DNA from: Pseudonocardia broussonetiae
Lineage (GTDB): Bacteria > Actinomycetota > Actinomycetes > Mycobacteriales > Pseudonocardiaceae
Assembly (NCBI RefSeq): GCF_013155125.1
Contig: NZ_CP053564.1
Location: 5,525,501 to 5,589,500, forward strand
DNA length: 64,000 bases
Direction: 5' to 3'
Shown: piece by piece, positions 9,874 through 25,106 of the stretch
Layout: every line of letters begins with the position of its first letter
How positions within the stretch are numbered: position 1 is the first letter of the stretch
Made by a program: the position numbers and the translations under genes
Notes under the pieces: generated by a model
Told to the model about the DNA's origin: nothing
The model's database searches: none
Seen by the model: only the letters and a program-made list of their open reading frames with translations

Positions 9874-11312
9874 GTCAGTCCCTGCTTCTCCAGGTGGTCG
9901 GGCAGGCCGCGGACGGCGATCCAGTCGGTGGTGACGTCGCCGGCGCGGAAGTCGGGGTGGTCGAGCGCGTCGCGGATGAAGGCGGCCGTGGTCGGCACGC
10001 CCTCGACGCGCAGGCTGCGCAGTGCGGCGCCGAGGCGGTCGGCGGCGGTGTCGCGGTCCGGCCCGTGGGCGACGATCTTGGCGAGCAGCGAGTCGTAGTA
10101 CGGGCTGACGACGTGGCCGGGCTCGCAGTGGGTGTCGACGCGGACGCCGTCGCCGGTGGGCGGAACCCACACGCCGACGGTGCCGGGGCGGGGCACGAAC
10201 CCCCGGGCCGGGTCCTCGGTGGTGATCCGGGCCTCGATCGCGTGGCCGGTGAGCACGACGTCGTCCTGGGTGATCCGCAGCGGCTCCCCCGCGGCGACGC
10301 GCAGCTGCTCGGCCACCAGGTCGACTCCGGTGACCATCTCGGTCACCGGGTGCTCGACCTGGATCCGCGCGTTGAACTCCAGGAAGGCGAACTCCCCGGT
10401 GTCGGAGTCGAGGATGAACTCGACCGTGCCTGCGCTGTCGAGCCCCAGCGCCCGCGCGAACGCGACGCCGCTCGCGCGGATCGCCTGGCGCACGGGCTCG
10501 GGCAGGTTCGGGGCGGGCGACTCCTCGACGACCTTCTGGTGGCGGCGCTGCAGCGTGCAGTCGCGCTCGCCGAGGTGGACGACGTGGCCGTGGCGGTCGC
10601 CGAGCACCTGCACCTCGATGTGGCGCGCCCGGCGTACGAAGTGCTCGACGTAGAGCCGCCCGTCACCGAAGGCCGACTGCGCCTCCGCGGCCGCCGCGGG
10701 GAACCGCGCGCGCATCCCCTCGTCGTCCTCGACGACCGACATGCCGCGCCCGCCACCGCCCGCCGCGGCCTTGACCAGCACCGGGTAGCCCAGCTCGCGT
10801 GCCGCCGCGACCGCGGCGTCGGTGGAGTCGAGGATCGGCGAGCCGTCGAGCACCGGGATCCCGGCGGCCCGGGCCAGCTCGCGGGCCCGCGCCTTGTCCC
10901 CGGCCTCCGCGACGGCGTCGGGCCGGGGCCCGACGAACACCAGTCCCGCGGCGACGCAGGCCGCCGCGAAGTCCGGGTTCTCCGACAGGAAGCCGTAGCC
11001 GGGGTGGAGCGCGTCGCACCCCGAGCCGAGCGCAGCACTGAGCACCGACGGGATCGCGAGGTAGCTCTGCGCCGCGGGGGCGGGGCCGATGCAGACGGCG
11101 CGGTCGGCCAGGCGCGCGGCGAGCGAGCCGCGGTCGGCGGTGGAGACGGCGACGACCGACTCCAGTCCCAGCGACCGGCACGCCCGTACCACCCGCACGG
11201 CGATCTCGCCGCGGTTGGCGATGAACACCCTGCGGATCGGGGTCGAGCGAGCGGCACCTCCACCCAACCCTGTTGGGCGAGGGTGCCGTTCGCGCAGGTC
11301 GGTGTCAGGCAT
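9870..11312 (-). CDS. Biotin carboxylase subunit
   Basis: 480 aa, ATG 11312. ATP-grasp fold with RVFIANRGEIAVRVVRAC at ~28-45, HPGYGFLSEN (103-112), the glycine loop KAAAGGGGRGM (181-191), ERDCTLQRRHQKVVEE and EFNARIQVEHPVTE. Full length for a stand-alone AccC-type subunit (~450 aa) with a short extra N-terminus. Carboxylates the biotin carried by the next subunit using ATP and bicarbonate. Overlaps both neighbours. Confidence 0.93.
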   Translation of the reverse strand: MPDTDLRERHPRPTGLGGGAARSTPIRRVFIANRGEIAVRVVRACRSLGLESVVAVSTADRGSLAARLADRAVCIGPAPAAQSYLAIPSVLSAALGSGCDALHPGYGFLSENPDFAAACVAAGLVFVGPRPDAVAEAGDKARARELARAAGIPVLDGSPILDSTDAAVAAARELGYPVLVKAAAGGGGRGMSVVEDDEGMRARFPAAAAEAQSAFGDGRLYVEHFVRRARHIEVQVLGDRHGHVVHLGERDCTLQRRHQKVVEESPAPNLPEPVRQAIRASGVAFARALGLDSAGTVEFILDSDTGEFAFLEFNARIQVEHPVTEMVTGVDLVAEQLRVAAGEPLRITQDDVVLTGHAIEARITTEDPARGFVPRPGTVGVWVPPTGDGVRVDTHCEPGHVVSPYYDSLLAKIVAHGPDRDTAADRLGAALRSLRVEGVPTTAAFIRDALDHPDFRAGDVTTDWIAVRGLPDHLEKQGLT

Positions 11313-11871
11313 CGCTCGGCCGGATCAGGAAGAGCACCTGGTCGTACTCCACCATCTCGGCGTTCGCGGCGAGTACCTGCACGACCACCCCGGCCCGCGG
11401 CGTGACCACGGGGTTCATCAGCTTCATGACCTCGACGATGGCGAGCTGCTCGTTCTCGCCGACGTTGCTGCCGACCTCGACGAACGGCGGCTCCCCCGGG
11501 CTCGGAGCGACCCAGAACGCCCCGACGGCGGGCGAGCGGACCTCGACGAGGCCGGTGGTGTCGACGGGTGGGCCCGGCGGGGCCGGGGCGGGGGGCGAGG
11601 GGGCTGCGGCGGGGCCCTCCGGAGTTGCAGGAAAGCCACTTTCCCGCACTCCGGTGGCAGGAACGTGGCTTTCCTGCAAGACGGGGGCGGGTGCGGCGGG
11701 CGCCGGAGCGGCGACGGCCGTGGGCGGCCCGTTCTTCCCCACCGTGATCGTCATGCCCCCGATCTCCAGGGTCATGGCGGTCCAGTCGGACGCCGCGAAG
11801 GTCCGCAGCACCTCCCGCACCCCGCGGTGGGTGACGCTGTCGGGCACGTCGGGCACGTCGGGCCCGCTCAT
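11305..11871 (-). CDS. Biotin carboxyl carrier protein
   Basis: 188 aa. C-terminal biotinyl domain with IVEVMKLMNPV; Lys150 is the biotin site (usual motif EAMKM, here EVMKLM). The N-terminal ~45 residues form a small helical/strand region, then a Pro/Ala-rich linker (51-105). The linker DNA contains a long perfect inverted repeat (separate entry), so part of the linker (about residues 65-83) looks like an inserted mobile-type palindrome kept in frame. Overlaps the genes on both sides. Confidence 0.9.
   Translation of the reverse strand: MSGPDVPDVPDSVTHRGVREVLRTFAASDWTAMTLEIGGMTITVGKNGPPTAVAAPAPAAPAPVLQESHVPATGVRESGFPATPEGPAAAPSPPAPAPPGPPVDTTGLVEVRSPAVGAFWVAPSPGEPPFVEVGSNVGENEQLAIVEVMKLMNPVVTPRAGVVVQVLAANAEMVEYDQVLFLIRPSDA
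11625..11679. repeat. 15-bp perfect inverted repeat inside the BCCP linker codons
   Basis: Arms TTGCAGGAAAGCCAC (11625-11639) and GTGGCTTTCCTGCAA (11665-11679) with a 25-bp centre that itself repeats GGAAAG/CTTTCC and GGCAGGAA elements. AT content is higher than in the flanks. It encodes about 18 linker residues without breaking the frame, resembling REP/RUP-type palindromic units that insert in coding linkers. Confidence 0.75.
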
Positions 11872-13628
11872 GCCGGTCTCCTCTCGTCGGCGCCGGACTG
11901 CGCGGCGGCGTGGGCGGCGGCCGCCAGCAGCACCGGGAGCCGGTGCGCCGCGACGATCACCTCGACGCCGCCGTCCAGGGCGTGGCGCACGCCGTCGGCG
12001 GTGGTGAACAGGGCCCCGCGGACGGTGCGGGTGCCGGGAGGGAGATCGGGCAGCCGCTCCCCCAGCTCCTCGGGCGCTGCGGCGTCGGCGTCGAACACCG
12101 GCGCGGGAACGTCGGCGCCGGGCGCGACAACGCGGACCGGGGCTGCGGCCTCGGCCCAGTCGCACAGGCGACGCAGGTCGTCGTCGCCGGTCTCGTCGAC
12201 GGCGGTGGTCGCCACCTCGCCTGCGTAGACCCGGCCCGCGGTGGCGTCGACGGTGACGGTCCGCCCGACGAGCGCGTCGACGGTGCCCGCGCCGCACCCG
12301 ACGACGCACGGGGTGTCGAGCGCCCGGCTGACGACAGCGGCGTGCGAGGTGGCCCCGCCCTGCTCGGTGACGACGGCGTCCGCGGCGATCATGCCCTGGA
12401 CGTCGTCGGGGCTGGTCGCCCGCCGGACGAGGACGGTGCCCGGCCGCGCCTCCTCGGGGGTGGCGACGGCGAGCCCCGTGGCGACGCCCGGGCTGGCCGC
12501 GGCGCCGGCGGCGAGCAGCTCGGCCACGTCTGCGGCCGCGGGGTCGATCGAGGGCCGCAGCAGCGTGCGGACCTGCTCGGCGGTGACCCGCCCGACGGCC
12601 TCGGCGGGCGTGATCGCGCCCTCGTCGACCAGCGCCACCGCGATCCGGACGGCGGCACGGGCGGTGCGCTTGGCCGGGCGCGACTGCAGCAGGTACAGCT
12701 CGCCGCCCTGCACCGTGAACTCGATGTCCTGGGCGTCGCGGCCCTCGGTGTCGAGGCACTCCGCGGCGGCGAGCAGCTCGGCGTGCACGTCGGGGTGCGA
12801 CGCGGCGAGGTGCGCCAGCGGCTCCGGGGTGACCCGGCCCGACACCACGTCCTCGCCCTGCGCCCGGGGCAGGTACTCGCCGTAGGGCTCGCGCGCGCCG
12901 TCGACGGGGCTGCGGGTGAACAGCACGCCGGTGCCGGAGTCGTCGTCGAGGTTGCCGAACACCATGGCCTGCACGGTGACGGCGGTGCCCAGATCGGGGA
13001 TGCCGTGGTGGTTCCGGTAGGCGACGGCGCGGCGCGAGCGGCTCGACGCGAACACCGCCGCGACGGCCGCGCGCAGCTGCTCCCGCGGGTCGGCGGGCAC
13101 CTCACCGGCGCCGTCCTGGGCGATCGCCGCCCGCACGGCCGCGGTGTCGGGCAGGTCGTCGAGCTCCTCGAGGCAGCCGAGCACGAGCCGCCCGTAGAAG
13201 CCGGTGAACCGGCGGTGCACCTCGGCCGCGAACGCCGGGTCGCCGCTCTCCGCGGCCAGCGCGGTCTCGACGGCGTCGGTGCAGCCCAGGTCGAGGATCG
13301 TGTCCATCATCCCGGGCATGCTGACCGCCGCCCCGGACCGGACCGACACCAGCAGCGGCCGCTCGGTCCCGCCGAAGGTGCGGCCCAGCGACCGCTCCAG
13401 CAGCCGGATGCCCGCCTCCAGCTCCTCGGCGAGCCCGTCGGGCAGCCCGCCCGAGGCCAGGTGCGCGGCGCACGCCTCGGTCGTGACGACGAACGCCGGT
13501 GGCACCCGCAGCCCGAGCGAGCGCATCCGCCACAGACTCCACGCCTTGCCGCCCACCAGGTCCCGGCTCGGCTCGACCGCCGGGTCGTCGGGGACGACGA
13601 TCCACCGGAACCCGGTCGTGGTGCTCAT
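11868..13628 (-). CDS. Pyruvate phosphate dikinase-like protein lacking the PEP/pyruvate barrel
   Basis: 586 aa. An ATP-grasp domain (VGGKAWSLWRMRSLGLRVPP, LVSVRSGAAVSMPGMMDTIL, GNLDDDSGTGVLFTRSP, DIEFTVQGGELYLLQSRPAK at ~301-320) is followed by a swivelling phosphohistidine domain with TEQGGATSHAAVVSR, His429. The usual C-terminal TIM barrel (~350 aa) is absent; only ~130 residues of other sequence follow. Such truncated enzymes (for example phenylphosphate synthase and antibiotic phosphotransferases) phosphorylate another acceptor. The acceptor site may be supplied by other operon proteins. Overlaps both neighbours (ATGA). Confidence 0.85.
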   Translation of the reverse strand: MSTTTGFRWIVVPDDPAVEPSRDLVGGKAWSLWRMRSLGLRVPPAFVVTTEACAAHLASGGLPDGLAEELEAGIRLLERSLGRTFGGTERPLLVSVRSGAAVSMPGMMDTILDLGCTDAVETALAAESGDPAFAAEVHRRFTGFYGRLVLGCLEELDDLPDTAAVRAAIAQDGAGEVPADPREQLRAAVAAVFASSRSRRAVAYRNHHGIPDLGTAVTVQAMVFGNLDDDSGTGVLFTRSPVDGAREPYGEYLPRAQGEDVVSGRVTPEPLAHLAASHPDVHAELLAAAECLDTEGRDAQDIEFTVQGGELYLLQSRPAKRTARAAVRIAVALVDEGAITPAEAVGRVTAEQVRTLLRPSIDPAAADVAELLAAGAAASPGVATGLAVATPEEARPGTVLVRRATSPDDVQGMIAADAVVTEQGGATSHAAVVSRALDTPCVVGCGAGTVDALVGRTVTVDATAGRVYAGEVATTAVDETGDDDLRRLCDWAEAAAPVRVVAPGADVPAPVFDADAAAPEELGERLPDLPPGTRTVRGALFTTADGVRHALDGGVEVIVAAHRLPVLLAAAAHAAAQSGADERRPA

Positions 13629-14227
13629 TCCTCCCGCTCCCGCCCGGTCAGCCGCAGCAGGTGCTCGTGCATCTGGAACCAGACGGTGTGGAACGAGTCG
13701 ACCCGCACCCCGCTGACGTAGTCGGTCTCGCCGCCCTCGGCGCGGGTGAGCGCGGTGCCCAGGCGCTCGACGAACCGCCCGACCAGCGGGTCCTCGACGG
13801 GCCCGAGGACCGCGGGCAGCTTGTCGAGGATCCGTCCGAGGCGGTCGAGGACCTTCGCGTCGTGGTCGGCGTCGGAGTGGTCGTTGGTGACGCGCTCCCC
13901 GCCGACCTCGACGGTCTGCCAGTCGGTGGTGACCTTGAGGACCTGCTTGTTGACGCCGCTCTCGAACGCGTCCATCGCCGCGGCGACGGCCGGGTCGGAC
14001 CGCAGCGCCCCGAACACCACCGGGTAGGCCGCGTCGAGCTGCTCCCGCCCGGCCGGGGTGATCATGAACTTGCCGCGGGCCGCCATCACCGCGCCGTCCG
14101 CGACCGCCTTCTCCAGCTCCGCCTCCACCTCGGTGGCGGGCTGCCCGGAGACTCCGGCCAGCTCCTCGGCCGTGGCGAGCTGCTTCATCGTGAGGGTGTG
14201 CAGGGTGAGCAGGTGGGGGTCGAGCAT
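13625..14227 (-). CDS. Helical protein with N-terminal winged-helix-like segment, unknown role
   Basis: 200 aa from ATG 14227. Residues 1-60 (LTLHTLTMKQLATAEELAGV ... AVADGAVMAARGKFMITPAG) read like a small winged-helix; the rest is helical and acidic (DAFESGVNKQVLKVTTDWQT, VLDRLGRILDKLPAVL, FVERLGTALTRA). I do not recognise the family. Its stop overlaps the start of the dikinase-like gene, so a subunit or assembly function with that enzyme is plausible. Confidence 0.6.
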   Translation of the reverse strand: MLDPHLLTLHTLTMKQLATAEELAGVSGQPATEVEAELEKAVADGAVMAARGKFMITPAGREQLDAAYPVVFGALRSDPAVAAAMDAFESGVNKQVLKVTTDWQTVEVGGERVTNDHSDADHDAKVLDRLGRILDKLPAVLGPVEDPLVGRFVERLGTALTRAEGGETDYVSGVRVDSFHTVWFQMHEHLLRLTGREREE

Positions 14228-14238
14228 CGCAGGTCCTC

Positions 14239-15741
14239 TCAGGGGGTGGTCGCGGCGGCGGTCATGCGGTCGCGCACCTCGCGGCGCAGCGACTTGCCGA
14301 CCGGGCTGGTGGGCAGGTCGGGCCAGATCTCGACGGCCCGGGGGCGCTTGAAGCCGGCGAGGCGCTCCGCGCAGTGGGCGACGATCTCGGCGGGCTCCAC
14401 GTCCGCCCGCAGGACGACGGCCGCGGCCACCCGCTCGCCCCACGTCTCGTCGGGGAGGCCGACGACGGCGGCCTGCGCCACCGCCGGGTGGCTGAGCAGC
14501 GCGTCCTCGACCTCGCGCGGGTACACGTTGAAGCCCCCGCTGATGATCACGTCGTGGCGCCGGTCGAGCAGGTGCAGGTAGCCCTCGCCGTCCCAGCGGC
14601 CGATGTCGCCGGTGTGCAGCCAGCCGTCGGGCTCGAGGGTCTCGGCCGTCGCCTCGGGCCGCCGCCAGTAGTGGTGCATGGTGTGCGGGCCGCGGGTGAG
14701 GATCTCGCCCACCTCGTCGGGGCCCAGGGACCGACCGGCGGCGTCGCGCACGTCGACCTCGACGAACGTGTACGGCTTGCCCGCCGAGGTCAGGCGCTCG
14801 GGGGTGTGCTCCCACGGCTGGAGGCAGGTGATCGCCAGCGGCGCCTCCGCCTGCCCGTAGAGCTGGGCGAACACCGGCCCGAGCACGTCGATCCCACGCT
14901 GCAGCACCGTCGTCGCGATGGGGGCGCCGCCGTAGCAGAGGCGCTCCAGGGCGAGCCCGCCCGACGACGCGAGCGCCGCGGTCGCCGGGTCCTCCAGCAG
15001 CATCGCGATCATCGTCGGCACCATGAACGTCGACGTGGCGCGGTGCCGCTGCGCCGCCTCGAGGAACGCGGCGGGCGAGAACTTCGTGACGAGGACGTTC
15101 GGCGCCCCCTTCACCAGGTGCGGCAGGAAGAACGCGCCGCTGCCGTGGGTGATCGGGGCGGCGTGCAGCATCACCGACGACGGCGTGAGGTTGGGCAGCA
15201 GGTCGACGAGGAAGTTCGCCACCTCGGCCAGTTCGCTGCGCGTCGTGAGCACGACCGCCTTCGGCCGGCCCGTGGTGCCGCCGGTGTAGGCCAGGCGCAG
15301 CGGGGCGTCCAGGTCGCGGCGCACGTCGCACGGCCCGTCGGGCGCGCCGGCGATCATGCCCGGCAGCTCGTCGGAGATGATCATGACCTCGACGGCGGCG
15401 GGCGGGTCGCCGGCGTGCACCAGCGCCCTGGCCTGCGAGTCCTCGATCTTGAACGCGTGCTCGTGGGGCGTCTCGCGGGTGTTGAGCGGCACGCGCACGA
15501 GCCCCGCCTTGGCCAGCGCGTAGTAGACGACGACGCCGTCGATCCCGTTGGGCAGCAGCACCGCCACCCGGTCCCCCGGCTCCAGCCCCCGGGCCAGCAG
15601 GGCGTGGCCGAGCCGGTCGGTGAGTGCGTCGAACTCGGCGAAGCTCACCGTCCGGGCCCCGCCGTCGTCATCCGGGTGGACCAGCGCGGGGGCGGCACCG
15701 AACTGCCGCCCCGCGCGCCGGATCAGGTCGCCGATCTGCAC
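14239..15741 (-). CDS. Acyl-CoA/carboxylic acid-CoA ligase (AMP-forming)
   Basis: 500 aa from GTG 15741, two bases after the preceding stop. Adenylation motifs: LAYTGGTTGRPKAVVL (P-loop), YGQAEAP, GWLHTGDIGRWDGEGYL, DRRHDVIISGGFNVYPREVE and the catalytic Lys in SPVGKSLRRE. ANL superfamily, medium length. It would activate the carboxylated product of the biotin enzymes as a CoA ester for the thiolase. Substrate specificity cannot be told. Confidence 0.88.
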   Translation of the reverse strand: MQIGDLIRRAGRQFGAAPALVHPDDDGGARTVSFAEFDALTDRLGHALLARGLEPGDRVAVLLPNGIDGVVVYYALAKAGLVRVPLNTRETPHEHAFKIEDSQARALVHAGDPPAAVEVMIISDELPGMIAGAPDGPCDVRRDLDAPLRLAYTGGTTGRPKAVVLTTRSELAEVANFLVDLLPNLTPSSVMLHAAPITHGSGAFFLPHLVKGAPNVLVTKFSPAAFLEAAQRHRATSTFMVPTMIAMLLEDPATAALASSGGLALERLCYGGAPIATTVLQRGIDVLGPVFAQLYGQAEAPLAITCLQPWEHTPERLTSAGKPYTFVEVDVRDAAGRSLGPDEVGEILTRGPHTMHHYWRRPEATAETLEPDGWLHTGDIGRWDGEGYLHLLDRRHDVIISGGFNVYPREVEDALLSHPAVAQAAVVGLPDETWGERVAAAVVLRADVEPAEIVAHCAERLAGFKRPRAVEIWPDLPTSPVGKSLRREVRDRMTAAATTP

Positions 15742-15743
15742 GG

Positions 15744-17291
15744 TCAGCCGTTCCCCTGCAGGTCGGCCCGGAGCAGCCCGGCCCCCTTGCCCTGCAGCGT
15801 CCGGCTGTCGCGCTGCGCCAGCTCGTAGAGCGCGTTCGCGCGGTCGGAGGTGTAGTGCCGCTTGACCCACTCCTCGTCGAGGTAGCGGAACTCCGGCGCC
15901 TGCGCGGACGGGGTGAAGCCACGGGCCCTGCGGTTGTACTCGTCGAGCTCCAGGCGCCCCGCGCTCGTCGTCCACAGCCCGGTCTTGGGGTCGAGGCTCG
16001 ACGAGCCGGACAGGCTGGAGCCGGCCGTCGGTGCGAAGTCGTCGTCGGTGAGCACCGAGTACGGCACGCCGGTGAGCATGTTCTGGTTGAGGCCGGAGTA
16101 GCGCGCCATCGTGTACTCGCTGGTCTTCTGGTGCGGGAAGCCCAGCAGGCCGACCATCTCGCCGAGGTCGTCGCGGCCGTACTCGTCGTTCATGAGCGGC
16201 TTGAACCGCTGCACGCGGTCGTCGAGCTGGAACCAGTCGTCCTGGCGGTAGGTCCCGGCGAGGTGCGCGAAGTCCTTGGCCACCGACGAGTAGACCAGGG
16301 CGCCGGCGTCGATCATCTGCTCGCGCGACCAGCCCGCGATGCGCTTCCACAGGTCGGCCGTGGCCGCGTTGAGGATCTCGCGGTAGGACTCCATCGTCTC
16401 CGCGAGCTTCTCCGCGTTCTCCATCCCGACGGGCTGGTAGCCGTCGGTGAGGGCGTCGGAGGTGTACATGCCGACGGCCGCGATGTTGGACGCGTCGTAG
16501 GACGGCTCCGCCTCGAACGAGGCCCAGTCGTCCATGAGGTTGAAGTTGGTGTCCTTGAAGACGATCGGGATCGTGAGGTTGCCGAACGGGAGCTGCGTGG
16601 CGATGCCGTCGAGCCAGGGATAGTCGCCCTCGGTGAGCTCGAAGAAGTCGCGGACGATGAGCTGGCGGTTGTCGCCGAAGTTGTACGGACCGCTGTTGTG
16701 CAGCCCGATCCGGCACTCGCAGTGCGCGAGGAACGCGTACTGCGACAGCTGCGCGACGAGCTTGGTGGCCGCGGTGTGCAGCCGGTCGCCGGGGACGACG
16801 CCGTGCAGGTCGGACTCGAACACCTGCAGCGTGCGCTCGGGCAGGAACTGGCTGCGGTCGCCGAACTCCTTGTTCGTCATGTGGCCGTCGTTGCGGTGGT
16901 AGGCCAGGTTGAAGCGGCGCGAGAAGTCGAGCACGTCGACGACGTCCTCGACGGCGTCGGCCGGGCCCAGCAGGCCCCAGTTCATGAGCATCTCGCGGCC
17001 GATGAGGTAGAAGGCCGGCATGCCCCAGGCGGCGTTGACGGTGTCGACCTTGAGGCTCACCTCGCGGGCCCGGTCGCCGAGCTCCTCGGCCGGCGTCGCG
17101 GCGTCGATCTCCCGGAGCTGCGTGGGCAGCCGGTAGAACGTGTTGAGGTAACTGAGCAGCATGTACGGGTTCATCGGGAACAACTTCGACTCCTGCACCG
17201 TGCGCGTGATGCACAGCCAGTAGGTCGTGTCGCTCAGCTGCCGGAGGTAGTTGTTGGTCTCCAGCAGGCTCTTGTAGCTCAGGTCCGCCAT
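15744..17291 (-). CDS. Partner protein of a swivelling-His domain, family not recognised (paralogue 1)
   Basis: 515 aa from ATG 17291 (a GTG lies one codon before). No signal peptide or membrane segment. Shared landmarks with two other window proteins: SKLFPMNPYMLLSYLNTFYR, ATPAEELGDR, FYLIGREMLMNW, FLAHCECRIGLHNSGPYNFG, IVRDFFELTEGDYPWLDGI and LPFGNL. Cys and His pairs in the HCECRIGLHNSGPY region are candidates for metal or catalytic residues. Directly follows the gene for a stand-alone swivelling domain (0-3 bp gap), a pairing repeated at 21.9-25.1 kb. It may supply the acceptor-substrate site missing from the truncated dikinase; inference only. Confidence 0.7.
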   Translation of the reverse strand: MADLSYKSLLETNNYLRQLSDTTYWLCITRTVQESKLFPMNPYMLLSYLNTFYRLPTQLREIDAATPAEELGDRAREVSLKVDTVNAAWGMPAFYLIGREMLMNWGLLGPADAVEDVVDVLDFSRRFNLAYHRNDGHMTNKEFGDRSQFLPERTLQVFESDLHGVVPGDRLHTAATKLVAQLSQYAFLAHCECRIGLHNSGPYNFGDNRQLIVRDFFELTEGDYPWLDGIATQLPFGNLTIPIVFKDTNFNLMDDWASFEAEPSYDASNIAAVGMYTSDALTDGYQPVGMENAEKLAETMESYREILNAATADLWKRIAGWSREQMIDAGALVYSSVAKDFAHLAGTYRQDDWFQLDDRVQRFKPLMNDEYGRDDLGEMVGLLGFPHQKTSEYTMARYSGLNQNMLTGVPYSVLTDDDFAPTAGSSLSGSSSLDPKTGLWTTSAGRLELDEYNRRARGFTPSAQAPEFRYLDEEWVKRHYTSDRANALYELAQRDSRTLQGKGAGLLRADLQGNG

Positions 17292-17294
17292 CAC

Positions 17295-18017
17295 TCAGCC
17301 CTCGATCTTCCAGATCCGGGCGTGCCCGGTGTTCCCGGTCTCGTACGCGTCGGCCGCCGGCGGCGCCGCCGTCACCTCGATCTCGACGACGTCGCCGTCG
17401 ACGAGGGTGTCGATCGTGCAGTTCATGAGCGTCGGCACGTCGTACTCGCGGGCGAGGATCCCGAGGTGCGAGCGCACGGAGCCGCCCAGGCAGATGACGC
17501 CCGCGAAGCCCTCGATGATCGGGGCGGTGAGCGTGCCGCCGGAGTCGTCGATGACGGCGATCGTGCCGTCCGGGACGCCGTCGGCGAGGAACCCCATGAC
17601 CTGCTCGATCTTGGAGATCAGCGCGACCGGGCCGGTCACCGACGCGGTCTTGCGGATGACGTTGTCGCCCACCCCGACCTGCCGGCGGCCGTCGGTGACG
17701 GCGCCGTCGGCGAACGCGGAGGCCACCTTCTCGGGCCGCTTGTACTTCTCGGGCTCGGACTCCAGCGACACCGTCGCCGAGAAGTCGAAGCGGTAGCCGG
17801 AGTCGAGCGCCTCCTGCTCGACGGCCTGCGCGTCGGCGAGGGAGAACAGGTCGTACTGCCGGTCGAACACCACGTCCTTCCAGGCGACACCGGTCGCGGC
17901 GAAGCGCTGCGCGGCCAGTTCCCGGACGGCGGAGTTGTAGCGGCCGGGCAGCGGCAGCATCTCCTTCGTGCCCCACTTCGGGGGTGTCAGGGCGGCCTCG
18001 GGGGCGGGATCGGACAT
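17295..18017 (-). CDS. Stand-alone PEP-utiliser swivelling (phosphohistidine) domain protein
   Basis: 240 aa from ATG 18017, with GGAGAGGTG upstream. The C-terminal half is a mobile domain: VALISKIEQVMGFLADG, GTIAVIDDSGGTLTAPI and CLGGSVRSHLGILAREYDVP, with candidate phosphohistidine His184 in RSHLGI (canonical TSHAAI). The N-terminal 100 residues (KEMLPLPGRYNSAVRELA, LFSLADAQAVEQEAL) have no match I know. No ATP-grasp domain is present, so phosphate must come from another protein, most simply the dikinase-like enzyme of the same operon. First gene of the operon. Confidence 0.8.
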   Translation of the reverse strand: MSDPAPEAALTPPKWGTKEMLPLPGRYNSAVRELAAQRFAATGVAWKDVVFDRQYDLFSLADAQAVEQEALDSGYRFDFSATVSLESEPEKYKRPEKVASAFADGAVTDGRRQVGVGDNVIRKTASVTGPVALISKIEQVMGFLADGVPDGTIAVIDDSGGTLTAPIIEGFAGVICLGGSVRSHLGILAREYDVPTLMNCTIDTLVDGDVVEIEVTAAPPAADAYETGNTGHARIWKIEG

Positions 18018-18121
18018 CGTCACCTCTCCGTGATCGGGTCGGCGGTTCGGCCACCGGCGTCGGATCCAGTGCCACGTCCGGAGGCCCGTAGGCCTCGTTC
18101 TGCGGCTGTTCACGAGGGTGA

Positions 18122-18171
18122 AAGGTAGGTACGTTGAGAGATGTGACCCAGTCCACGTTGGTGGACAGTCC
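18122..18171 (-). promoter_or_regulatory. Promoter/activator region of the carboxylase operon, shared with the 25.1-kb operon
   Basis: Read on the minus strand: ACTGTCCACCAACGTGGACT, then GGGTCACA, 14 bp, and TACCTT as -10. The same arrangement (ACTGTCC-CC-A-GTG-ACTGGGTCACA ... TACCGT) precedes the 24735-25106 gene. The element also covers the start of the divergent luxR gene, so that regulator is the likely binder and may autoregulate. Confidence 0.6.
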
Positions 18172-18970
18172 GGCGTCGACGACGACTGCCACGCCCTCCC
18201 GCCGGGCTCGTTCCTCACCACGCACCGCCCTGCGCAGGGCCGACTACGAGCGCGCCTTCGACGTGCTGGAGGATTGCGACGGGTCCCCTTCGCTGCCCGA
18301 TTTCCGGGAGCAGCTCGTCGAGGCCCTGCACCACCGCTTCGGGCTCAAGCACGTGTCGTTCTTCGTCGGCGCCACGTTCCACAACATCTTCGGCGACCTC
18401 GCCCCCGTCACCGAGGGCAACACCGCGAAGATGCTGCCGGAGTACCAGGAGCGGTGGTCGCGCTACGACGTGTTCGGCACGCCCGCCGCGATGCGCCAGC
18501 TCGTCTCCAGCGGCGTGTCCTCCCTGTCCGAGTTGCGCGCGCTCGGCGCCCTGCCGGCCTCGGCCAACGCTTACGTCCGCCACTTCCTCCAGGCGACCTG
18601 GGGGATGGAGTCGGCGGCGGCGATGCGCCTCGAGCTGCCCGGCGGCCACACCGCGCTTGTCGGCATGTTCGACACCGCCCCCGACCGCCTCTCCCCCCAG
18701 GACCTGGCCACGCTGCGCGCCCTGTCGCGCCAGCTCTCCGCCATCGCCCGCGGCCTGCCCGTCTCCCGCCCGAAGGCCGCCCTCGCCGGGCTCTCGGAGC
18801 GGCAGCGGCAGGTGGTGCAGCTCGTGGCCGACGGCCTGTCGAACGCCCAGATCGCCGAGACCCTGTCGTTGGCGGAAGACAGCGTGAAGAAGTACGTGAG
18901 CCGCATCCTGAGCGCCACCGGCTGCCAGAGCCGGATGGAGCTGGCGCTGCTGGCGCGGTCGCGGGGCTGA
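18143..18970 (+). CDS. LuxR-family transcriptional regulator
   Basis: 275 aa from GTG 18143; TTG 18134 is an alternative and the true start is unsure because the shared operator overlaps it. The C-terminal HTH reads LSERQRQVVQLVADGLSNAQ ... DSVKKYVSRILSATG, a GerE-type recognition unit. The ~170-residue N-terminal region (FREQLVEALHHRFGLKHVSF ... MRLELPGGHTALVGMFD) looks like a GAF/PAS-type sensor. Divergent from the twelve-gene operon; likely activates it and the related operon at 25.1 kb through the shared element. Confidence 0.85.
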   Translation: MTQSTLVDSPASTTTATPSRRARSSPRTALRRADYERAFDVLEDCDGSPSLPDFREQLVEALHHRFGLKHVSFFVGATFHNIFGDLAPVTEGNTAKMLPEYQERWSRYDVFGTPAAMRQLVSSGVSSLSELRALGALPASANAYVRHFLQATWGMESAAAMRLELPGGHTALVGMFDTAPDRLSPQDLATLRALSRQLSAIARGLPVSRPKAALAGLSERQRQVVQLVADGLSNAQIAETLSLAEDSVKKYVSRILSATGCQSRMELALLARSRG

Positions 18971-18983
18971 GCTCGCATCGTCT

Positions 18984-19005
18984 GCCAGCCGGCTCACCGG
19001 CTGGC
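18984..19005 (+). terminator. Hairpin terminator after luxR
   Basis: Perfect 9-bp stem GCCAGCCGG / CCGGCTGGC with loop CTCA, 14 bp after the stop. More GGCCGG/CCGGCC half-repeats follow up to 19055. Confidence 0.7.
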
Positions 19006-19055
19006 CTGCTCGGCCGGTTGACCGGCTCGGCCGGCTCACCGGGTGGCTGGGCCTG

Positions 19056-19426
19056 GGGCTCGCACACAGGGTGCGCGGCCGGCACACAGGGCCGGGCTTG
19101 TGTGCGGGCGGTCGGAGGTGTGTGCGAGCGGAGTGGTGGGCACCCCGGCCCCGGCTCGCGCTCGCACACAGGTTTCGGGCTCGCGCACAGGTTGCGGGCT
19201 CGCACGCAGGACGGGACGTGTGCGCGAGCCCGGAAGGTGTGCGAGCGGGAGTTGTCGCCTTGTGCCGACCCGGGGCGCGGCTGTTCCGGCACCGGCGGCT
19301 CTCCCCATGGCGTGCGAAGGCTTCGACGAACCGCGCTCGGACGCCAGCTCGCGCTCGCGCACAGGTCCGGGGTTCGCACACAGGTTGCGGGGCCGGCACA
19401 CAGGGCCGGAACTGTGTGCGAGCACG
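19056..19426. repeat. Three degenerate palindromic repeat units in a 530-bp gene-free gap
   Basis: Units at about 19056-19131, 19157-19249 and 19348-19426. Each has two or three direct copies of CTCGC(A/G)CACAGG followed by inverted TGTG(T/C)GCGAGC copies, so each can fold into a long hairpin. Units 1 and 3 share GGCCGGCACACAGGGCCGG exactly. Between units 2 and 3 (19250-19347) I see no gene. No spacer/repeat regularity of a CRISPR array exists. These look like multicopy REP-type intergenic elements. Confidence 0.75.
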
Positions 19427-19455
19427 AAAAAGTGCGCGACGGCGTCCAGATCAAG

Positions 19456-19471
19456 TCGAACACATGTTCGA
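19456..19471. promoter_or_regulatory. LexA (SOS) box
   Basis: TCGAACACATGTTCGA is a perfect match to the actinobacterial LexA consensus TCGAAC-N4-GTTCGA. It lies 31 bp ahead of the DUF222-HNH start and overlaps the likely -35 region, so DNA damage should de-repress that gene. Confidence 0.85.
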
Positions 19472-19496
19472 CTCGAGCCACAATTCCTGGTATTGT
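19467..19496 (+). promoter_or_regulatory. Predicted promoter of the HNH gene, leaderless
   Basis: TTCGAC (19467-19472) and TATTGT (19491-19496) with an 18-bp spacer; the ATG start at 19503 is six bases after the -10, fitting a leaderless transcript. The -35 lies inside the LexA box. Confidence 0.5.
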
Positions 19497-19502
19497 CGGT
19501 CC

Positions 19503-20716
19503 ATGTCAGCGACCCGTTCCGGCACGCCTTCCGAGGCGTTGCTCGTCGAACGGATCGCACGGCTCGAGGAACGGAAAGCGGCGATCGCGGCCGAGCAGTC
19601 GGACGCGATCCTGGAGTTCGCGCGGGCAGACGCGGAATCGCAGACGGCCGGTGGCCCGTCGACCCGGAAGCGCTCGAACGCAGCATCGCCGCTCAGGTCG
19701 CGCTCGCGTGCCGGGTGTCACCCACCGAGGGCCGGCGGCGCGTTCGGACCGCCCGGGACCTGCACGCCGGACACACCCGGGTCCGTGAGCTGTTCTCCGC
19801 CGGGCTGCTGAGCGAGTACAAGACCGCGACCGTCATCGCCGCCACCGCGCACCTCTCCCCCGCCGAGCGGGCGCAGGTCGACCAGGAACTGGCCGAGCAG
19901 CGGGTGGAGACCCTCGGCGTCCGACGGATCCACGACCTGGCCCGGACGCTGGCTGCGCAGGTGGCGCCGGAGAAGTTCACGGCCCGGTGCCGCGCCGCCC
20001 GGTCGGGCCGGCGGGTGTCGGTCCGTCCCTCGGCCGACGGGATGGCCGATCTCACCGCCCACCTGCCGGTCGAGGAGGCCGTGGCCTGCTACGCCGCCCT
20101 CGCCGCCGCGGTCAACGAGGTCGCGGTCCAACCGGAACCGGTCACGCGCGGCCGGGGGCAGATCATGGCCGACACCCTCGTCGAACGGCTCACCGGACAA
20201 GCCACCGCCCGCGACGTCGCCGTCGAGATCCAGATCCTGGTTCCCGTCGAGGCGCTCGTCGACCGCGACAGCCCGCTGCCCGCGGAGATCCCCGGTCACG
20301 GTCCCGTCCCGGTCGAACTCCTCACCTGCGGAGCCGGCCGGAAGACGTGGAGACGGTTGATCACCCGAGACGGCACCGTCATCGGCGGCGACTCCCGCAG
20401 CCGCTTCTTCACCGGCCGACTTGCCGCACTGATCCGTGCGAGGGACGGCCACCGCTGCCGCGAGCCCTACTGCGACGCACCGATCCGCCACATCGACCAC
20501 ATCCGCCGCTGGTCCGAACTCGGCCGCACCGAGTTCGACAACGGCCGCGGATTGTGCGCATTCCACAACCACGTCCGGGAAACAGTCGGGTGGCGGGCCG
20601 AGGTCACCTCCGGAACGGTCAGGACGACGACACCCACCGGCGCTGAGTATGTTTCCGAACTGCTTCCGTTGAGCAATCCTGCGACCGGTGAGAAGAGCCG
20701 ATCCGGCGCGGCCTGA
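19503..20716 (+). pseudogene. DUF222/HNH endonuclease-like gene with a one-base frameshift
   Basis: Frame 1 starts MSATRSGTPSEALLVERIAR and runs through AIAAEQSDAILEFARADAES, a normal DUF222 N-terminus. Near 19635-19650 the homology moves to another frame (IADGRWPVDPEALERSIAAQ) and continues to the end, including RDGHRCREPYCDAPIRHIDH and GRGLCAFHNH, the HNH zinc/catalytic motif. One missing base near 19640 explains it; no homopolymer is there. With the base restored it would be about 405 aa. Family knowledge: 13E12-like multicopy proteins, often SOS controlled, function unclear. If real, the first frame ends early at 19811. Confidence 0.8.
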
Positions 20717-20779
20717 TCTCCTTGTTCGAGCTGCCCGTCCATCGCCCGAACCAGCCCGCAGCCGGGCAGACGACGGCGT

Positions 20780-21925
20780 CTACAGGAACGACGACTCCCT
20801 CGTCAGTCCGTACCTCGGGTGCTCGCCGATCACCATCGACTCGAAGATCCCGTACCCCACCGCGTCCCCCTCCCGCACCCGGATGACGCAGTCGCGGAGC
20901 TGGTGGATCTCCCGCACCGTCTCCGGGGACGAGGCGTCGGCGAACCGCTCGCCGTCGACGAACTTCTCCCCGTGCCACTGGCCGTGGCGCTGGCCGCGGA
21001 AGCCGAAGTACTTGGCTGTGCCCAGGTGGAAGCCCGTGTCGCTCGCCGCCTCGATCTCGACGGTGCGGGTCTCGCCCCAGCCGGCGTCGAAGGTCATCTT
21101 GCCGCCGAGCAGGCGCCGGTTGACGGGGTCGAACTTGAGCTCGTCGCGCACGGCGTGCAGGTCGCGCTGCGAACCGTCCGCCTCGTTGACGAAGCCGGAG
21201 AAGTACGTGGTCTCGTGGTCGACCTGCTGCTGGTAGTGGTGGATCTCGTAGGACGAGCCGTCCGGGCGGCGCATCCACATCGGGCTCCAGGTGAGCAGGA
21301 AGTCCTGGTCGAGCCGCTGTGGCTTGAAGACGTCCGGAGCGGGGTCGCCCACGTCCATCCGCACGCCCCACGAGTGGTCGCGGAACCCGAACCACTCCTC
21401 GTCGTGCACGTCGATCCGCTGCCCGTCGATGTGGATCGTGCCGCGAACGGTCGAGGCCTGGTGGTAGCGCAGCAGGTCGGACTGGATCCGGAAGCCGTGC
21501 GGCTCGCGCTGCTCGTCCTTGCGCTCCAGGAAGGGCGGGAGGACGCCGGTCACGACGAGGTCGAAGCGGATCGGCAGGACATGGTTCTCCCGCAGGGTGA
21601 ACCGCACCGACTTCAGCGGCTCGATCACCTCGTAGTCCAGTGGCCCGACGCCGACGCGCTCCGGGTCGGCGTCGAGGCGGCGCGTGGAGCGAACCGTCAG
21701 CTGCTCCGTGCCGCGGGAGATGCCGCCGAAGCCGTCCATGACGTTGCGGTTGTGGTACTTGCCGAACCCGACGTCGACCTGCAGCGAGCCGTCGCGCGCG
21801 AACAGCGACCCCCACAGCTTCTCGGTCCAGGAGATGTCGGCGTGGCCGATCGTGGCGAAGGTCTGCGGCGTCTGGTGGCAGAGCAGCTCGTCGGCGTGGG
21901 TGAGGATCTGCTGGGCTTGGCGCAC
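20780..21925 (-). CDS. CrtC/AttH-like lipocalin-fold protein
   Basis: 381 aa from GTG 21925 with AGGAGA upstream. Beta-rich throughout: NRNVMDGFGGISRGTEQLTV, VRGTIHIDGQRIDVHDEEWF, HDEEWFGFRDHSWGVR, LLTWSPMWMRRPDGSSYEIH. The GFRDHSWG element and tandem beta sandwiches resemble hydroxyneurosporene-synthase (CrtC)/AttH-like proteins often found in steroid or terpene loci. No catalytic assignment. Last gene of the four-gene operon; 10 bp after the fusion gene's stop. Confidence 0.6.
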   Translation of the reverse strand: MRQAQQILTHADELLCHQTPQTFATIGHADISWTEKLWGSLFARDGSLQVDVGFGKYHNRNVMDGFGGISRGTEQLTVRSTRRLDADPERVGVGPLDYEVIEPLKSVRFTLRENHVLPIRFDLVVTGVLPPFLERKDEQREPHGFRIQSDLLRYHQASTVRGTIHIDGQRIDVHDEEWFGFRDHSWGVRMDVGDPAPDVFKPQRLDQDFLLTWSPMWMRRPDGSSYEIHHYQQQVDHETTYFSGFVNEADGSQRDLHAVRDELKFDPVNRRLLGGKMTFDAGWGETRTVEIEAASDTGFHLGTAKYFGFRGQRHGQWHGEKFVDGERFADASSPETVREIHQLRDCVIRVREGDAVGYGIFESMVIGEHPRYGLTRESSFL

Positions 21926-21935
21926 GAGTCGTCTC

Positions 21936-23561
21936 CTATCGGGTCGGCGAGAACGACCCGGGCAGGTCGTTGGCCACGACGGCGGTCCCGAAGACGGTCG
22001 CGGCCGCGGTGTCGTCGTCGAACGGGTCCGGGTAGAGCGCCGTCGTGTCGGGCGAGAACGCCCAGTCGATCTGGTCGGTCACCCCGGCGAGCGCGGCGAA
22101 CGGGCGCAGCCCCGAGGTGTACATCCTGGTCGCCGCGAAGATCCGCTCTTCGCGCCCCATGTCCGCGAACCCCTGGTAGAGCTCCATGTGGGCGCGGCTG
22201 GTGTCGGCGAGCACCTCGGCCCAGCGCTCCGGCCCGAGCACCTCCGACGAGCCGTCGGCGCGCCGCCCGACCACGGTGGCCTCGGTGACGGCCGACAGCA
22301 GCTGGTCGGGCTCGGTGAACGTCGTGCCCCAGTCGTTGATCTCGAACTCGGTGAACGCGGCGGGGTCGAACGTGAGCGCGAGCGTCAGCCCGCCGTAGGG
22401 CGGCGTCAGCGCCTCGGCCCACGGGTAGGCCCAGGCGCTCGGGCCCAGGGACAGGTAGTCACGGACGATCGTGTGCCGCCCGTCCCGGCGGGGGTAGGGC
22501 CCGGAGTCGCAGATGCCGACGCGGGAGTCGCAGAAGTAGAGGAACGAGTAGCCCGACACGGTGGCGTTGAGCCGCTTGAGCGCCTTGGACGACGCCGCGT
22601 CCACCGTGCTCCCCTGCGCGACCAGGTCGTCGACGACGTCGGCGGGCAGGTAGCGGTTGGTGAACCCGGCGTCCTTGTAGTCGAGTGTGCCGTCGCCGCG
22701 GTGGGCGAGGGTGAGCCGTCGCCAGAAGTCGACGACCGTGCGCACCTCCTCGATCCGCTCGTCGCGCCGCAGCTTCCCCATCTGGATGAGGCACTCGCGC
22801 CCGGTCAGGTAGTGGTAGCCGACCATCCAGATCCACAGCGGGCTCACCATCCCGGGCTGCCCGCGAAGCCGCTTCCCGATCTCCTGCGCGGGCATCGCCG
22901 CGTCGATCACGGCGACGCGCTCGGCGTAGGTGTGGAAGTCGTCGATCACCGACAGCGTCATGTACGGCAGCATCGGGAACAGCTCGGAGGTGAAGCCCGA
23001 GCGCCGCGTGATCTCCGGCTTGAAGGCGCGGCCCATGTGCTGGACGAGGTCGTCCAGGCGGTCGTCCGTGAGCTCCTCGGCGAGGAGCCGGTCGAGCGCC
23101 TCCGGCCCGACGGTGACGTCGAACGGCTTCACCGCGATCTCGTCGCCGACGCGGCGGACGTAGGCCCACCACGCCGCGGAGACGTCCTCGTCGGGCGTCG
23201 CGGCCGCGGGGGCGTCGGCGCCGGTGCGGACGACACCGGCACCGTCGACGATGTCCAGGGTGACCTCGGTGCCGTCGGCAAGCTCCTCGGTCAGGTCGGC
23301 CCCGACCAGACAGGGCACCTCGAACTCGCGCGAGGCGATAGCGAGATGGCTGCGCAGCGTGCCGTCACGGGCGACGATGCCGCCCAGGCGCCCGAGGATC
23401 GGCGACAGGAACGTCGTGCCGCCGGAGGAGACGACGGCGATCGTCGCCTCGAGGTCGGAGTCGATGGACGCGATGACGTCCTGCGGCGACCGGAAGTGCC
23501 GGACGGCACCCGTGACCCGGCCGAAGGTGTACGAGGGGACGCCCTTGCCGATGACGGCCAC
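21936..23561 (-). CDS. Fusion of swivelling-His domain and unknown partner domain (paralogue 2)
   Basis: 541 aa from GTG 23561, one base after the preceding stop. Residues ~20-115 are the swivelling domain: EATIAVVSSGGTTFLSPILG, ARDGTLRSHLAIASRE with His72. From ~125 on it is homologous to the 515-aa protein at 15.7 kb: SELFPMLPYMTLSVIDDF, YHYLTGRECLIQMG, YFCDSRVGICDSGPYPRRDG, IVRDYLSLGPSAWAYPW. The natural fusion says the two separate proteins of the other operon act as one complex. Confidence 0.75.
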   Translation of the reverse strand: MAVIGKGVPSYTFGRVTGAVRHFRSPQDVIASIDSDLEATIAVVSSGGTTFLSPILGRLGGIVARDGTLRSHLAIASREFEVPCLVGADLTEELADGTEVTLDIVDGAGVVRTGADAPAAATPDEDVSAAWWAYVRRVGDEIAVKPFDVTVGPEALDRLLAEELTDDRLDDLVQHMGRAFKPEITRRSGFTSELFPMLPYMTLSVIDDFHTYAERVAVIDAAMPAQEIGKRLRGQPGMVSPLWIWMVGYHYLTGRECLIQMGKLRRDERIEEVRTVVDFWRRLTLAHRGDGTLDYKDAGFTNRYLPADVVDDLVAQGSTVDAASSKALKRLNATVSGYSFLYFCDSRVGICDSGPYPRRDGRHTIVRDYLSLGPSAWAYPWAEALTPPYGGLTLALTFDPAAFTEFEINDWGTTFTEPDQLLSAVTEATVVGRRADGSSEVLGPERWAEVLADTSRAHMELYQGFADMGREERIFAATRMYTSGLRPFAALAGVTDQIDWAFSPDTTALYPDPFDDDTAAATVFGTAVVANDLPGSFSPTR

Positions 23562-23562
23562 G

Positions 23563-24738
23563 TCATCCTCCGATCGGCCGGAAGCAGCTGTCCCGGTCCT
23601 GTGGCACGAAGATCCCGCCGATGAGCGAGAGCGCGAGGTCCGGGTCCTGGAACTTCTCGTACGACTGCTGGATGGAGTCCGACACGGTCCAGTCGATCTC
23701 GTCGTAACACCCTGCCAGCCGCGCCCACGCCTTGAGCTTCCAGGCGTACATCGACGTGGCGTAGAGGTTGCGCACCTGCGGGTCGGTCTCGGCCAGGCGC
23801 TGGTAGAGCGCGCGGTGCGCCTTGCGGATCGCCGCCGTGGCCTCGGCCAGCTCGGCGAGGTCGAGCGGGCGCAGCACGCCGCCGTCGGTGGTGAACACGC
23901 GGGTCTCGATGATGTCGGCCTGGTAGTCGCTGGGCGTGAACCAGGCGGTGCCCCACACGTTGTTGTCCATCTTCACCGACGCCGGGAGGCGGTGGGCGAT
24001 GACGAAGTGGTGGAACGGCAGTGTCTCGCGGATCCCGTCGAGCCACGGGAAGTCGCCGTCGCCGTCGGCGCAGGTCTCGCGCAGCGCGAGGAACGAGCCG
24101 TCCTCGAGCTGGTAGGGGCCGGTGTCGCAGACCGCGGTGCGGGCGTCGCAGTTCTCCAGGAACGCGTACGCCGTGAGCCGGGCGCCGAACTTCCGGATGG
24201 CCGACTTGTGCTCGTCGTCGGCAGGCAGCAGGTGGCCGCGGATCTCGACCAGCAGCTCGTCGGACACGACGTGCGAGCTGTTGGGCGGGTCGGCGTCCAT
24301 GTTGTAGAGCACGCCGTCGGTGCGCATCGCGATCGTCGCCTCGCGCCAGAACTCGAGCACCGTCAGCTGGTCCTCGAGCCCGTCGGCCAGGGAGTTCTCG
24401 CCCAGGTCGACGTAGAGCTCGCGGCCGGTCATGTAGTGCAGCGGCATCGCGGCGAGGTTGATGAAGCTGCGCTTGTTCCCGATCGGCAGCGCGCGGCGCA
24501 CCAGCTCGGCCGGCGTCGCGTGGCTCAGGATCGTGCGGATCCGGTCGGGGACGCGGAGGTAGTCCTCCATCATCGACATGAGGATGTAGGTGTTCATGCC
24601 GAACAGCTCGGACTCGAACACCGTCCGCGACGTCAGCTCCGACTTGTAGGCCGCGCCGCCCTCGTGGACGAGGTGGTTCCACTCGTCGAGCGTGGGCTCG
24701 TAGGAGGCGTCGGTGTGCAGCGCCTTGAGGTCGCTCAT
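23563..24738 (-). CDS. Partner protein of a swivelling-His domain (paralogue 3)
   Basis: 391 aa from ATG 24738, overlapping the preceding stop as ATGA. Same landmarks: SELFGMNTYILMSMMEDYLR, ATPAELVRRALP, LHYMTGRELYVDLG, FLENCDARTAVCDTGPYQLE, ADGDGDFPWLDGIRETLPFH. The third paralogue is shortest; it lacks the C-terminal ~100 residues of paralogue 1. Conserved across the three: the S(E/K)LF-M-Y start, GRE, C-x-(A/S)R, (S/T)GPY and PW. Not a family I can name. Confidence 0.7.
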   Translation of the reverse strand: MSDLKALHTDASYEPTLDEWNHLVHEGGAAYKSELTSRTVFESELFGMNTYILMSMMEDYLRVPDRIRTILSHATPAELVRRALPIGNKRSFINLAAMPLHYMTGRELYVDLGENSLADGLEDQLTVLEFWREATIAMRTDGVLYNMDADPPNSSHVVSDELLVEIRGHLLPADDEHKSAIRKFGARLTAYAFLENCDARTAVCDTGPYQLEDGSFLALRETCADGDGDFPWLDGIRETLPFHHFVIAHRLPASVKMDNNVWGTAWFTPSDYQADIIETRVFTTDGGVLRPLDLAELAEATAAIRKAHRALYQRLAETDPQVRNLYATSMYAWKLKAWARLAGCYDEIDWTVSDSIQQSYEKFQDPDLALSLIGGIFVPQDRDSCFRPIGG

Positions 24739-25106
24739 GCCGACACCCCGGCGGCGACGGAGATCCGGGCCGTCTCGGCGTCGGACAGGTCGAGCACGAC
24801 GGCGTCGCCGTCGGTGACAGTGCCGGTCAGCTCGGCGGCCAGCACGCACGGCACGTCCGACTCGCGGGACAGGATCGCGAGGTGCGACTCCCGGCTCCCG
24901 GCCGTGCAGACGATGCCGCGCAGGTCGGGAAGGATCGGCGACAGGAACGTCATGCCGCCCTTGCTGACGAACGCGATGGTGTCCTCGAGATCGTCGTCGT
25001 CGATGGACAGGACGTCGGAGGTGTCGTTGAACCACCGCGCCGTGCCGCGCACCTCCCCCGCCGTGAACAGGTTCGTGCCGGTGCCGACCTCGTTCTGATC
25101 ACTCAT
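24735..25106 (-). CDS. Minimal swivelling phosphohistidine domain protein
   Basis: 123 aa from ATG 25106. Nearly only the mobile domain: DDLEDTIAFVSKGGMTFLSP, DLRGIVCTAGSRESHLAILS with His75, then VPCVLAAELTG. The usual glycine pair before SHAAI is replaced by GSRESHLAI, a variant shared in spirit by all three copies here (RSHLGI, RSHLAI, ESHLAI). First gene of a four-gene operon. It has no ATP-binding domain of its own. Confidence 0.8.
   Translation of the reverse strand: MSDQNEVGTGTNLFTAGEVRGTARWFNDTSDVLSIDDDDLEDTIAFVSKGGMTFLSPILPDLRGIVCTAGSRESHLAILSRESDVPCVLAAELTGTVTDGDAVVLDLSDAETARISVAAGVSA

Follow-up and report, generated by a model that had tools for sequence, protein, structure and literature searches.

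Swivelling phosphohistidine domains paired with an unrecognised protein family in Pseudonocardia broussonetiae: a candidate branched metabolic phosphorelay

The window analysed here, a stretch of 64,000 nucleotides from Pseudonocardia broussonetiae (contig NZ_CP053564.1, positions 5,525,501 to 5,589,500), contains three sets of genes in which a swivelling phosphohistidine domain (S) goes together with a partner protein (P), plus a single 200-residue helper (H) and a single ATP-grasp protein (A). The homology among the sets, the gene pairing, the fusions, the co-divergence, the conserved residues and the gene content are established by the comparisons described below. Together, S, P, H and A probably form a multi-component catabolic dikinase of small molecules. 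More tentatively, this cassette, which is also present in microcompartment loci, could work as a branched metabolic phosphorelay, in which A, accompanied by H, would be charged by ATP on its own histidine and would pass the phosphate, from histidine to histidine, to several dedicated swivelling carriers, each of them serving the acceptor enzyme with which it has co-evolved, from a family not yet described.

All three swivelling domains of the window, encoded like their partners on the minus strand, pass the cut-off of PF00391. S1 (17295-18017, His184; 31.1 bits) and S3 (24735-25106, His75; 38.8 bits) are stand-alone domains, and S2 (His72; 38.7 bits) is the first part of a 541-residue fusion protein, S2-P2 (21936-23561). 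The presumed acceptor-binding modules P1 (15744-17294, 515 residues) and P3 (23563-24738, 391 residues) are separate proteins. These open reading frames (ORFs) and histidine positions agree with a preliminary description of the region, which had also related the partners to each other through shared landmarks. The three P are indeed homologous (P1-P2, 35% identity, E 2e-43; P1-P3, 31%, E 2e-37; P2-P3, 30%, E 1e-45), with only 28-30% identity in a common alignment. Among the landmarks, S(K/E)LF..M..Y, GRE, (S/T)GPY and PW are present in P1, P2 and P3; C-x-(A/S)R does not hold for P1, where it reads CECR, nor RD for P3, where it reads RE. Two elements had been overlooked, namely H and a fourth S-P copy located elsewhere in the host genome.

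Profile searches with the P proteins of the window found no Pfam or NCBIfam match above the cut-off, and an alignment of 43 P gave nothing above the cut-off in Pfam (best E 0.017). The 33-residue stretch of P2 that resembles adenine phosphoribosyltransferases (E 0.033) lies far under the NCBIfam cut-off. By sequence, the best match of the P profile in the PDB had an E of 0.69, and neither P1 nor the P of locus L008 found a match there. With no significant match in any of these three collections, the assignment of P to a known enzyme family was rejected. The predicted structures reach a pLDDT of 85.6 and a pTM of 0.87 for S2-P2, and 90.2 and 0.90 for P3. Several residues of the family are strictly or almost strictly conserved (P3 numbering): R106 in 100/100 P matches; R200, Y51, W232, G207 and P208 in 99/99, with one gap; R220 in 98/99; and position 198, which is D in 94 P and E in 5. 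The invariant arginine and tryptophan residues suggest that P may harbour a ligand site.

A scan of 84,980 species genomes, with search patterns taken from one P subclass, yielded 119 relatives of P, and the analysis was restricted to the best 80 loci; counts per locus refer to these, and L-numbers are the labels of related loci compared with the window. The 80 loci contain 84 P matches. For 83 of them, an S is encoded on the same strand at no more than 1.2 kb; the only P without S is the second piece of a split P gene in L089, whose first piece has one. Among the 71 P with enough flanking sequence, S is found for 70. H is present for 64 within 2.5 kb and for 66 anywhere in the locus; the figures for A are 60 at up to 6 kb on the same strand and 63 anywhere in the locus. 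S and P are fused in 9/84 matches and S, P and H form a single chain in 7/84, with A in the locus for five of these seven (not for L098 and L105). In the fusion of the window and in the nine fusions of the 80 loci S is always N-terminal of P; otherwise, they are separate proteins. The histidine motif of S is conserved in 86/87 matches, and the remaining one, from L089, ends at SH. The family is rare, with matches in 5/100 genomes of the family of the host and in 6/396 of its phylum (host counted in both). The S-P pairing is real, and the expectations of the preliminary description were borne out in this respect: P has resulted in no known family of other function, the swivel histidine is kept among homologues and the co-occurrence of S and P across genomes is nearly universal.

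The pairing is also reflected in the divergence of both proteins. When 97 S-P pairs were reduced to 19 under 70% P identity (the P of L107, with no near S, was excluded), S and P distances showed a correlation of r 0.90, reached in 0/5000 shuffles. The value for A and P, calculated for the 12 of these pairs with A in the locus, was 0.26 (243/5000 shuffles), a figure that is lowered by loci in which the same A counts for several P. With the comparison limited to a single P from each locus, the 44 loci below 90% identity gave 0.95 for S-P, 0.50 for A-P and 0.58 for A-S (0/5000 shuffles each), and eight loci under 70% gave 0.93 for S-P (2/5000) and 0.22 for A-P (785/5000). The shuffles leave the shared host history in, and the correlation between A and P gauges that history; in any case, S-P co-divergence is clearly tighter than that of A and P.

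Each of four regions contains, over the stretch read, three S-P sets, a single H and a single A: the window, L184 (the genome of another genus of the same family), L106 (plasmid pRB98 of Rhodococcus oxybenzonivorans) and L108 (plasmid pA of R. pyridinivorans P23). Two of the four are thus plasmid-borne. Identities between the window and the other three regions are 88-92% for P1, 62-79% for P2 and 80-82% for P3. Further loci with several sets are L101 (two S-P-H and one A), L104 (two sets and one A) and L098 (two S-P sets, with A absent from the locus). The literature on R. oxybenzonivorans and R. pyridinivorans P23, searched in one open-access library, as were all the publications mentioned below, offered no substrate link. 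Plasmid pSA1 of Novosphingobium resinovorum contains one P match in the record, which is of the set 1 type (P 55%, S 58%) and has genes for a biotin carboxyl carrier protein (BCCP), a biotin carboxylase (BC), a carboxyltransferase (CT), a ligase, a thiolase, H and A nearby. This single P with a carboxylase indicates that set 1 is the set tied to carboxylation. The earlier proposal that one ATP-grasp component may charge several pairs agrees with the gene content of the four regions; genome-wide it does not hold, because A proteins are also encoded elsewhere in the host genome, in at least two loci (L005 and L175), so that the claim of a single donor is limited to the operon region.

As previously described, none of the three sets carries an ATP-grasp domain, and A (11868-13628, minus strand), the presumed phosphate donor, combines PPDK_N with its own swivelling domain (GGATSHAAVV) and has no match in Pfam to the phosphoenolpyruvate (PEP) barrel. 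It belongs to the truncated pyruvate phosphate dikinase (PPDK) family NF004531 (710 bits versus a cut-off of 456), and matches PPDK chains with an E of 8.6e-109 and PEP synthase only with 1.5e-25. Its swivel histidine is kept in 65/65 aligned A (L062, one of 66, was excluded beforehand). H (13625-14227, minus strand) has no Pfam or NCBIfam match and carries the motif S.H..WF..HE..L...G..R, invariant in 14 aligned H; it is fused to S-P in some relatives, adjoins A in others and is present in 13/60 genomes of the family of the host, host counted. Nine regions around H were compared: seven show adjoining H and A and no P (L175, L177-L181 and L183, with both genes on opposite strands in L179), L182 has S-P-A alongside H, and L176 has only a tblastn match to A, 6 kb from H. 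Two of the regions without P encode a protein with a C-terminal swivel that belongs to the broader type of rifampin phosphotransferase (RPH), at about 7 kb in L175 (HHalign 95.3 to Oth, another group of C-terminal-swivel proteins, and 45.7 to RPH) and at about 3.5 kb in L177 (100 to Oth and 96.6 to RPH). H-A may therefore be a general donor.

Architecture and gene order, together with the NCBI family, suggest that A is a member of the VadK family and a close homologue of VadK (Rv1127c); gene order likewise makes Rv1126c, the operon partner of Rv1127c, a putative homologue of H. Rv1127c autophosphorylates with Mg-ATP at its swivel His422, is more soluble when co-expressed with Rv1126c, and 2 M NaCl was used to part the two proteins (PMC13400623).

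The genes around set 1 offer hints about the fate of its substrate. The run that starts with this set groups the kinase genes S1, P1, H and A with a biotin carboxylase, a phosphatase, a CoA ligase and a thiolase, a gene content of the Hpe type. The Hpe pathway starts with the phosphorylation of acetovanillone and 4-hydroxyacetophenone by HpeHI. The phosphorylated ketone is the only form that HpeCBA carboxylates, HpeD then removes the phosphate, and HpeE and HpeF have been proposed as the enzymes that activate and cleave the product (PMC9618137). There is one candidate in the run for each of these steps, all on the minus strand: S1-P1-H-A for phosphorylation; BCCP (11305-11871; PF00364, 58.6 bits), BC (9870-11312; best NCBIfam NF009471, 592.6 bits, under its cut-off of 686) and a CT of the PYC/OADA type (8374-9873; PF02436, 97.7 bits, and PF00682, 44.5 bits; NF006761, 337 bits, under its cut-off of 402) for carboxylation; a Y_phosphatase3 protein (6055-6822; PF13350, 166.5 bits), the presumed phosphate remover; an acyl-CoA ligase (14239-15741; PF00501, 241 bits); and a thiolase (6819-7958) with its OB-fold partner (7955-8374), a pair matching PF22691/PF01796. 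The phosphatase and the thiolase of the window apparently belong to other families than HpeD, which is NagD-like, and the cleavage enzyme HpeF, which is CouO-like (PMC9618137). Phosphatases of the HAD or Y_phosphatase3 type were found by tblastn in 59/80 loci of the relatives. Further kinases heading similar pathways are the one-component MarK and AcvAB (PMC13101465).

From these data we infer catalysis, the His-to-His step, the class of substrate and the role of H as follows. A, a likely descendant of PPDK without the PEP/pyruvate barrel, would take the phosphate of ATP onto its own swivel histidine, and H would be a docking or scaffold part staying with A. The dedicated phosphocarrier S would receive the phosphate on its histidine and hand it to a small molecule on the matched P, with one A/H unit serving the three S-P sets of the region. 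For set 1 the acceptor would most likely be a ketone or phenolic ketone, which would be phosphorylated, carboxylated by BCCP, BC and CT, dephosphorylated by the Y_phosphatase3 protein, activated with CoA and finally thiolysed.

The same kinase could also work without the His-to-His step, if S docked directly at the ATP-grasp site of A, whose own swivel would serve other acceptors. This alternative, somewhat doubtful in our opinion, has a parallel in HpeH, which presumably docks in this way with HpeI; HpeI is an ATP-grasp protein, and the swivel is borne by HpeH (PMC12167813). It is also consistent with the occurrence of A without S-P; the retention of the histidine of A in all aligned sequences, together with the autophosphorylation of its presumed homologue VadK at the swivel histidine (PMC13400623), argues against it. 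A different possibility is suggested by the fact that the three sets stay together in four regions of different hosts: they could jointly build one hetero-oligomeric enzyme that acts on a single substrate. The Novosphingobium plasmid, with a lone P of the set 1 type plus a carboxylase, and the low identity of P1, P2 and P3 in their common alignment make this reading unlikely. Finally, a regulatory relay, in which A would phosphorylate S, and P would be a signalling or scaffold protein controlling neighbouring enzymes, seems quite improbable in view of the phosphatases beside so many cassettes and of the invariant Arg and Trp residues, which suggest a ligand site in P; moreover, three matched S-P sets per region would suit substrates better than regulators. 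This regulatory role would nevertheless be in line with VadK, presumably of the same family as A, which is described as a regulatory histidine kinase interacting with methylcitrate cycle enzymes (PMC13400623).

Several points weigh against the multi-component dikinase that we favour, the regulatory role described for VadK among them. The literature searched contains no biochemical result for any S-P-H-A system. We know of no catalytic signature that could be recognised in P. Among the 71 P with room, A is absent from the locus in eight and H in five, and on plasmid pSA1 the gene for S is next to those for H and A, at a distance of about 8 kb from P. The finding of A and H without S-P means that A has other work. 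No phosphatase was found in the stretch covered of 21/80 loci, 12 of them longer than 15 kb. Lastly, the 80 loci are the best of 119 and are biased to one P subclass, because the search patterns came from that subclass.

The cassette also appears in other genomic contexts. The host genome itself contains an S-P-H-A cassette in a bacterial microcompartment (BMC) locus (L005:1-13905; G000:C1:5881000-5894904), and 51/80 loci are of this kind. They combine BMC and EutN/CcmL shell genes with an acetylating-type aldehyde dehydrogenase, a malate/lactate dehydrogenase, DUF7064, a HAD phosphatase and an apparent EutJ-like gene. Words beginning with 'kinase' or 'dikinase' are absent from the main text of the BMC catalogue, and a search of the open-access library for microcompartments with a dikinase found no paper on S-P-H-A. 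These loci possibly encode an undescribed microcompartment pathway starting with a phosphorylation. Proteins of the DUF7064/DUF7065 or Rv3169 families recur beside S-P cassettes (20780-21925 in the window; L005:5474-6460), those of the L005 type in 54/80 loci.

In a plasmid of Methylibium petroleiphilum PM1 (L111:8402-20845) the gene order is DUF7064-like, P, S and H, and two regulator-like genes separate the cassette from downstream genes for cobalamin-binding, AMP-binding, MeaB and mutase proteins, which we take to be the 2-hydroxyisobutyrate pathway of fuel-ether degradation. A was not found in the 21 kb covered around this cassette, nor did the open-access library contain any paper on Methylibium with PEP-utilizing genes. 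In plasmid pROB02 of Rhodococcus opacus B4, a fused S-P-H (L110:11485-13866) is annotated as 'PEP-utilizing enzyme' and has a P450, a ferredoxin and a tyrosine phosphatase as neighbours, with an A encoded on the opposite strand. A Tm-1-like ATP-binding protein precedes BCCP, BC, CT and a HAD hydrolase in plasmids of Sphingobium yanoikuyae YC-JY1 (L112:4866-10251) and Pseudomonas putida YC-AE1 (L113:4874-10356), and is perhaps a single-component kinase of the MarK type.

The genes of the window are arranged in two runs on the minus strand. The first (18017 to 5651) comprises, from upstream to downstream, S1, P1, the acyl-CoA ligase, H, A, BCCP, BC, CT, the OB-fold protein, the thiolase, the Y_phosphatase3 phosphatase and an SRPBCC protein (5651-6058; PF10604, 86.1 bits). 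The second (25106 to 20780) comprises S3, P3, the fused S2-P2 and a protein of the Rv3169 family (20780-21925; NF053593, 369.9 bits), whose position is taken by a comparable gene in L106 (77%) and L108 (64%). Between both runs, a LuxR-type regulator gene (18134-18970) and a further ORF map to the plus strand. The stretch 18988-20716 contains GC-rich tandem repeats, which are short and degenerate, as well as an ORF with an apparent HNH-like end, and no gene like this ORF is listed at the equivalent place of L106.

If the proposed mechanism is true, P would be a new acceptor family for phosphohistidine chemistry, spread over several phyla among soil bacteria and degraders of pollutants. Proteins that at present go by the names 'hypothetical' or 'PEP-utilizing enzyme' would become the first enzymes of degradation pathways. 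The question of why small molecules are first phosphorylated and then carboxylated in bacteria would become testable, PPDK would show how an enzyme of central metabolism can turn into a phosphate donor in common use, and VadK might gain a biochemical frame.

A last point concerns the relationship of S-P-H-A with known systems. According to the preliminary description, no described system with this composition was known, a statement that goes too far: two-component aromatic dikinases (HpeHI, CreHI and PpsAB) and the kinase-then-carboxylase Hpe pathway have already been reported (PMC12167813, PMC9618137) and can be regarded as close functional analogues, and the presumed family of A has been described as well, as VadK (PMC13400623); S-P-H-A itself was not found in print in the open-access library searched. 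Like these dikinases, the cassette would combine an ATP-grasp component with a swivel-bearing acceptor component, and, as in Hpe, its kinase genes are grouped with a biotin carboxylase, a phosphatase and an acyl-CoA synthetase. However, two defining features of HpeHI, the domain order and the ATP-grasp-only subunit, are missing from S-P-H-A. HpeH has a substrate domain followed by a C-terminal swivel in one chain, whereas the order here is swivel, P and H, often as separate genes; HpeI has only the ATP-grasp, with a PEP-synthase-like motif (PMC12167813), whereas A is of the PPDK type and carries its own swivel. VadK and Rv1126c resemble the cassette in that A is also of the truncated PPDK kind, with ATP-grasp and swivel, and in that A-H gene pairs recur, but no S-P set is described with VadK in the available part of the report (PMC13400623). 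The P profile gave an HHalign probability of 0.1 against the RPH acceptor region, and also 0.1 against a set of three chains chosen for their HpeH-like architecture (not true HpeH; two of them resemble each other in the part shown), a negative of limited weight because the control between HpeH-like chains and RPH reached only 7.0; the other controls gave 99.7 (Oth-RPH) and 59.7 (HpeH-like-Oth). RPH is a single chain, unlike S-P-H-A, and the host genome has a match above the cut-off to the NCBIfam model of rifamycin-inactivating phosphotransferases (1494.6 bits; G000:C1:1405466-1408042). The proposed transfer between histidines would also recall the phosphotransferase system, in which the swivel histidine of enzyme I passes its phosphate to a histidine on another protein, HPr, with the differences that S is itself a swivelling domain, not HPr, and that the donor would be ATP through a PPDK-type grasp instead of PEP.

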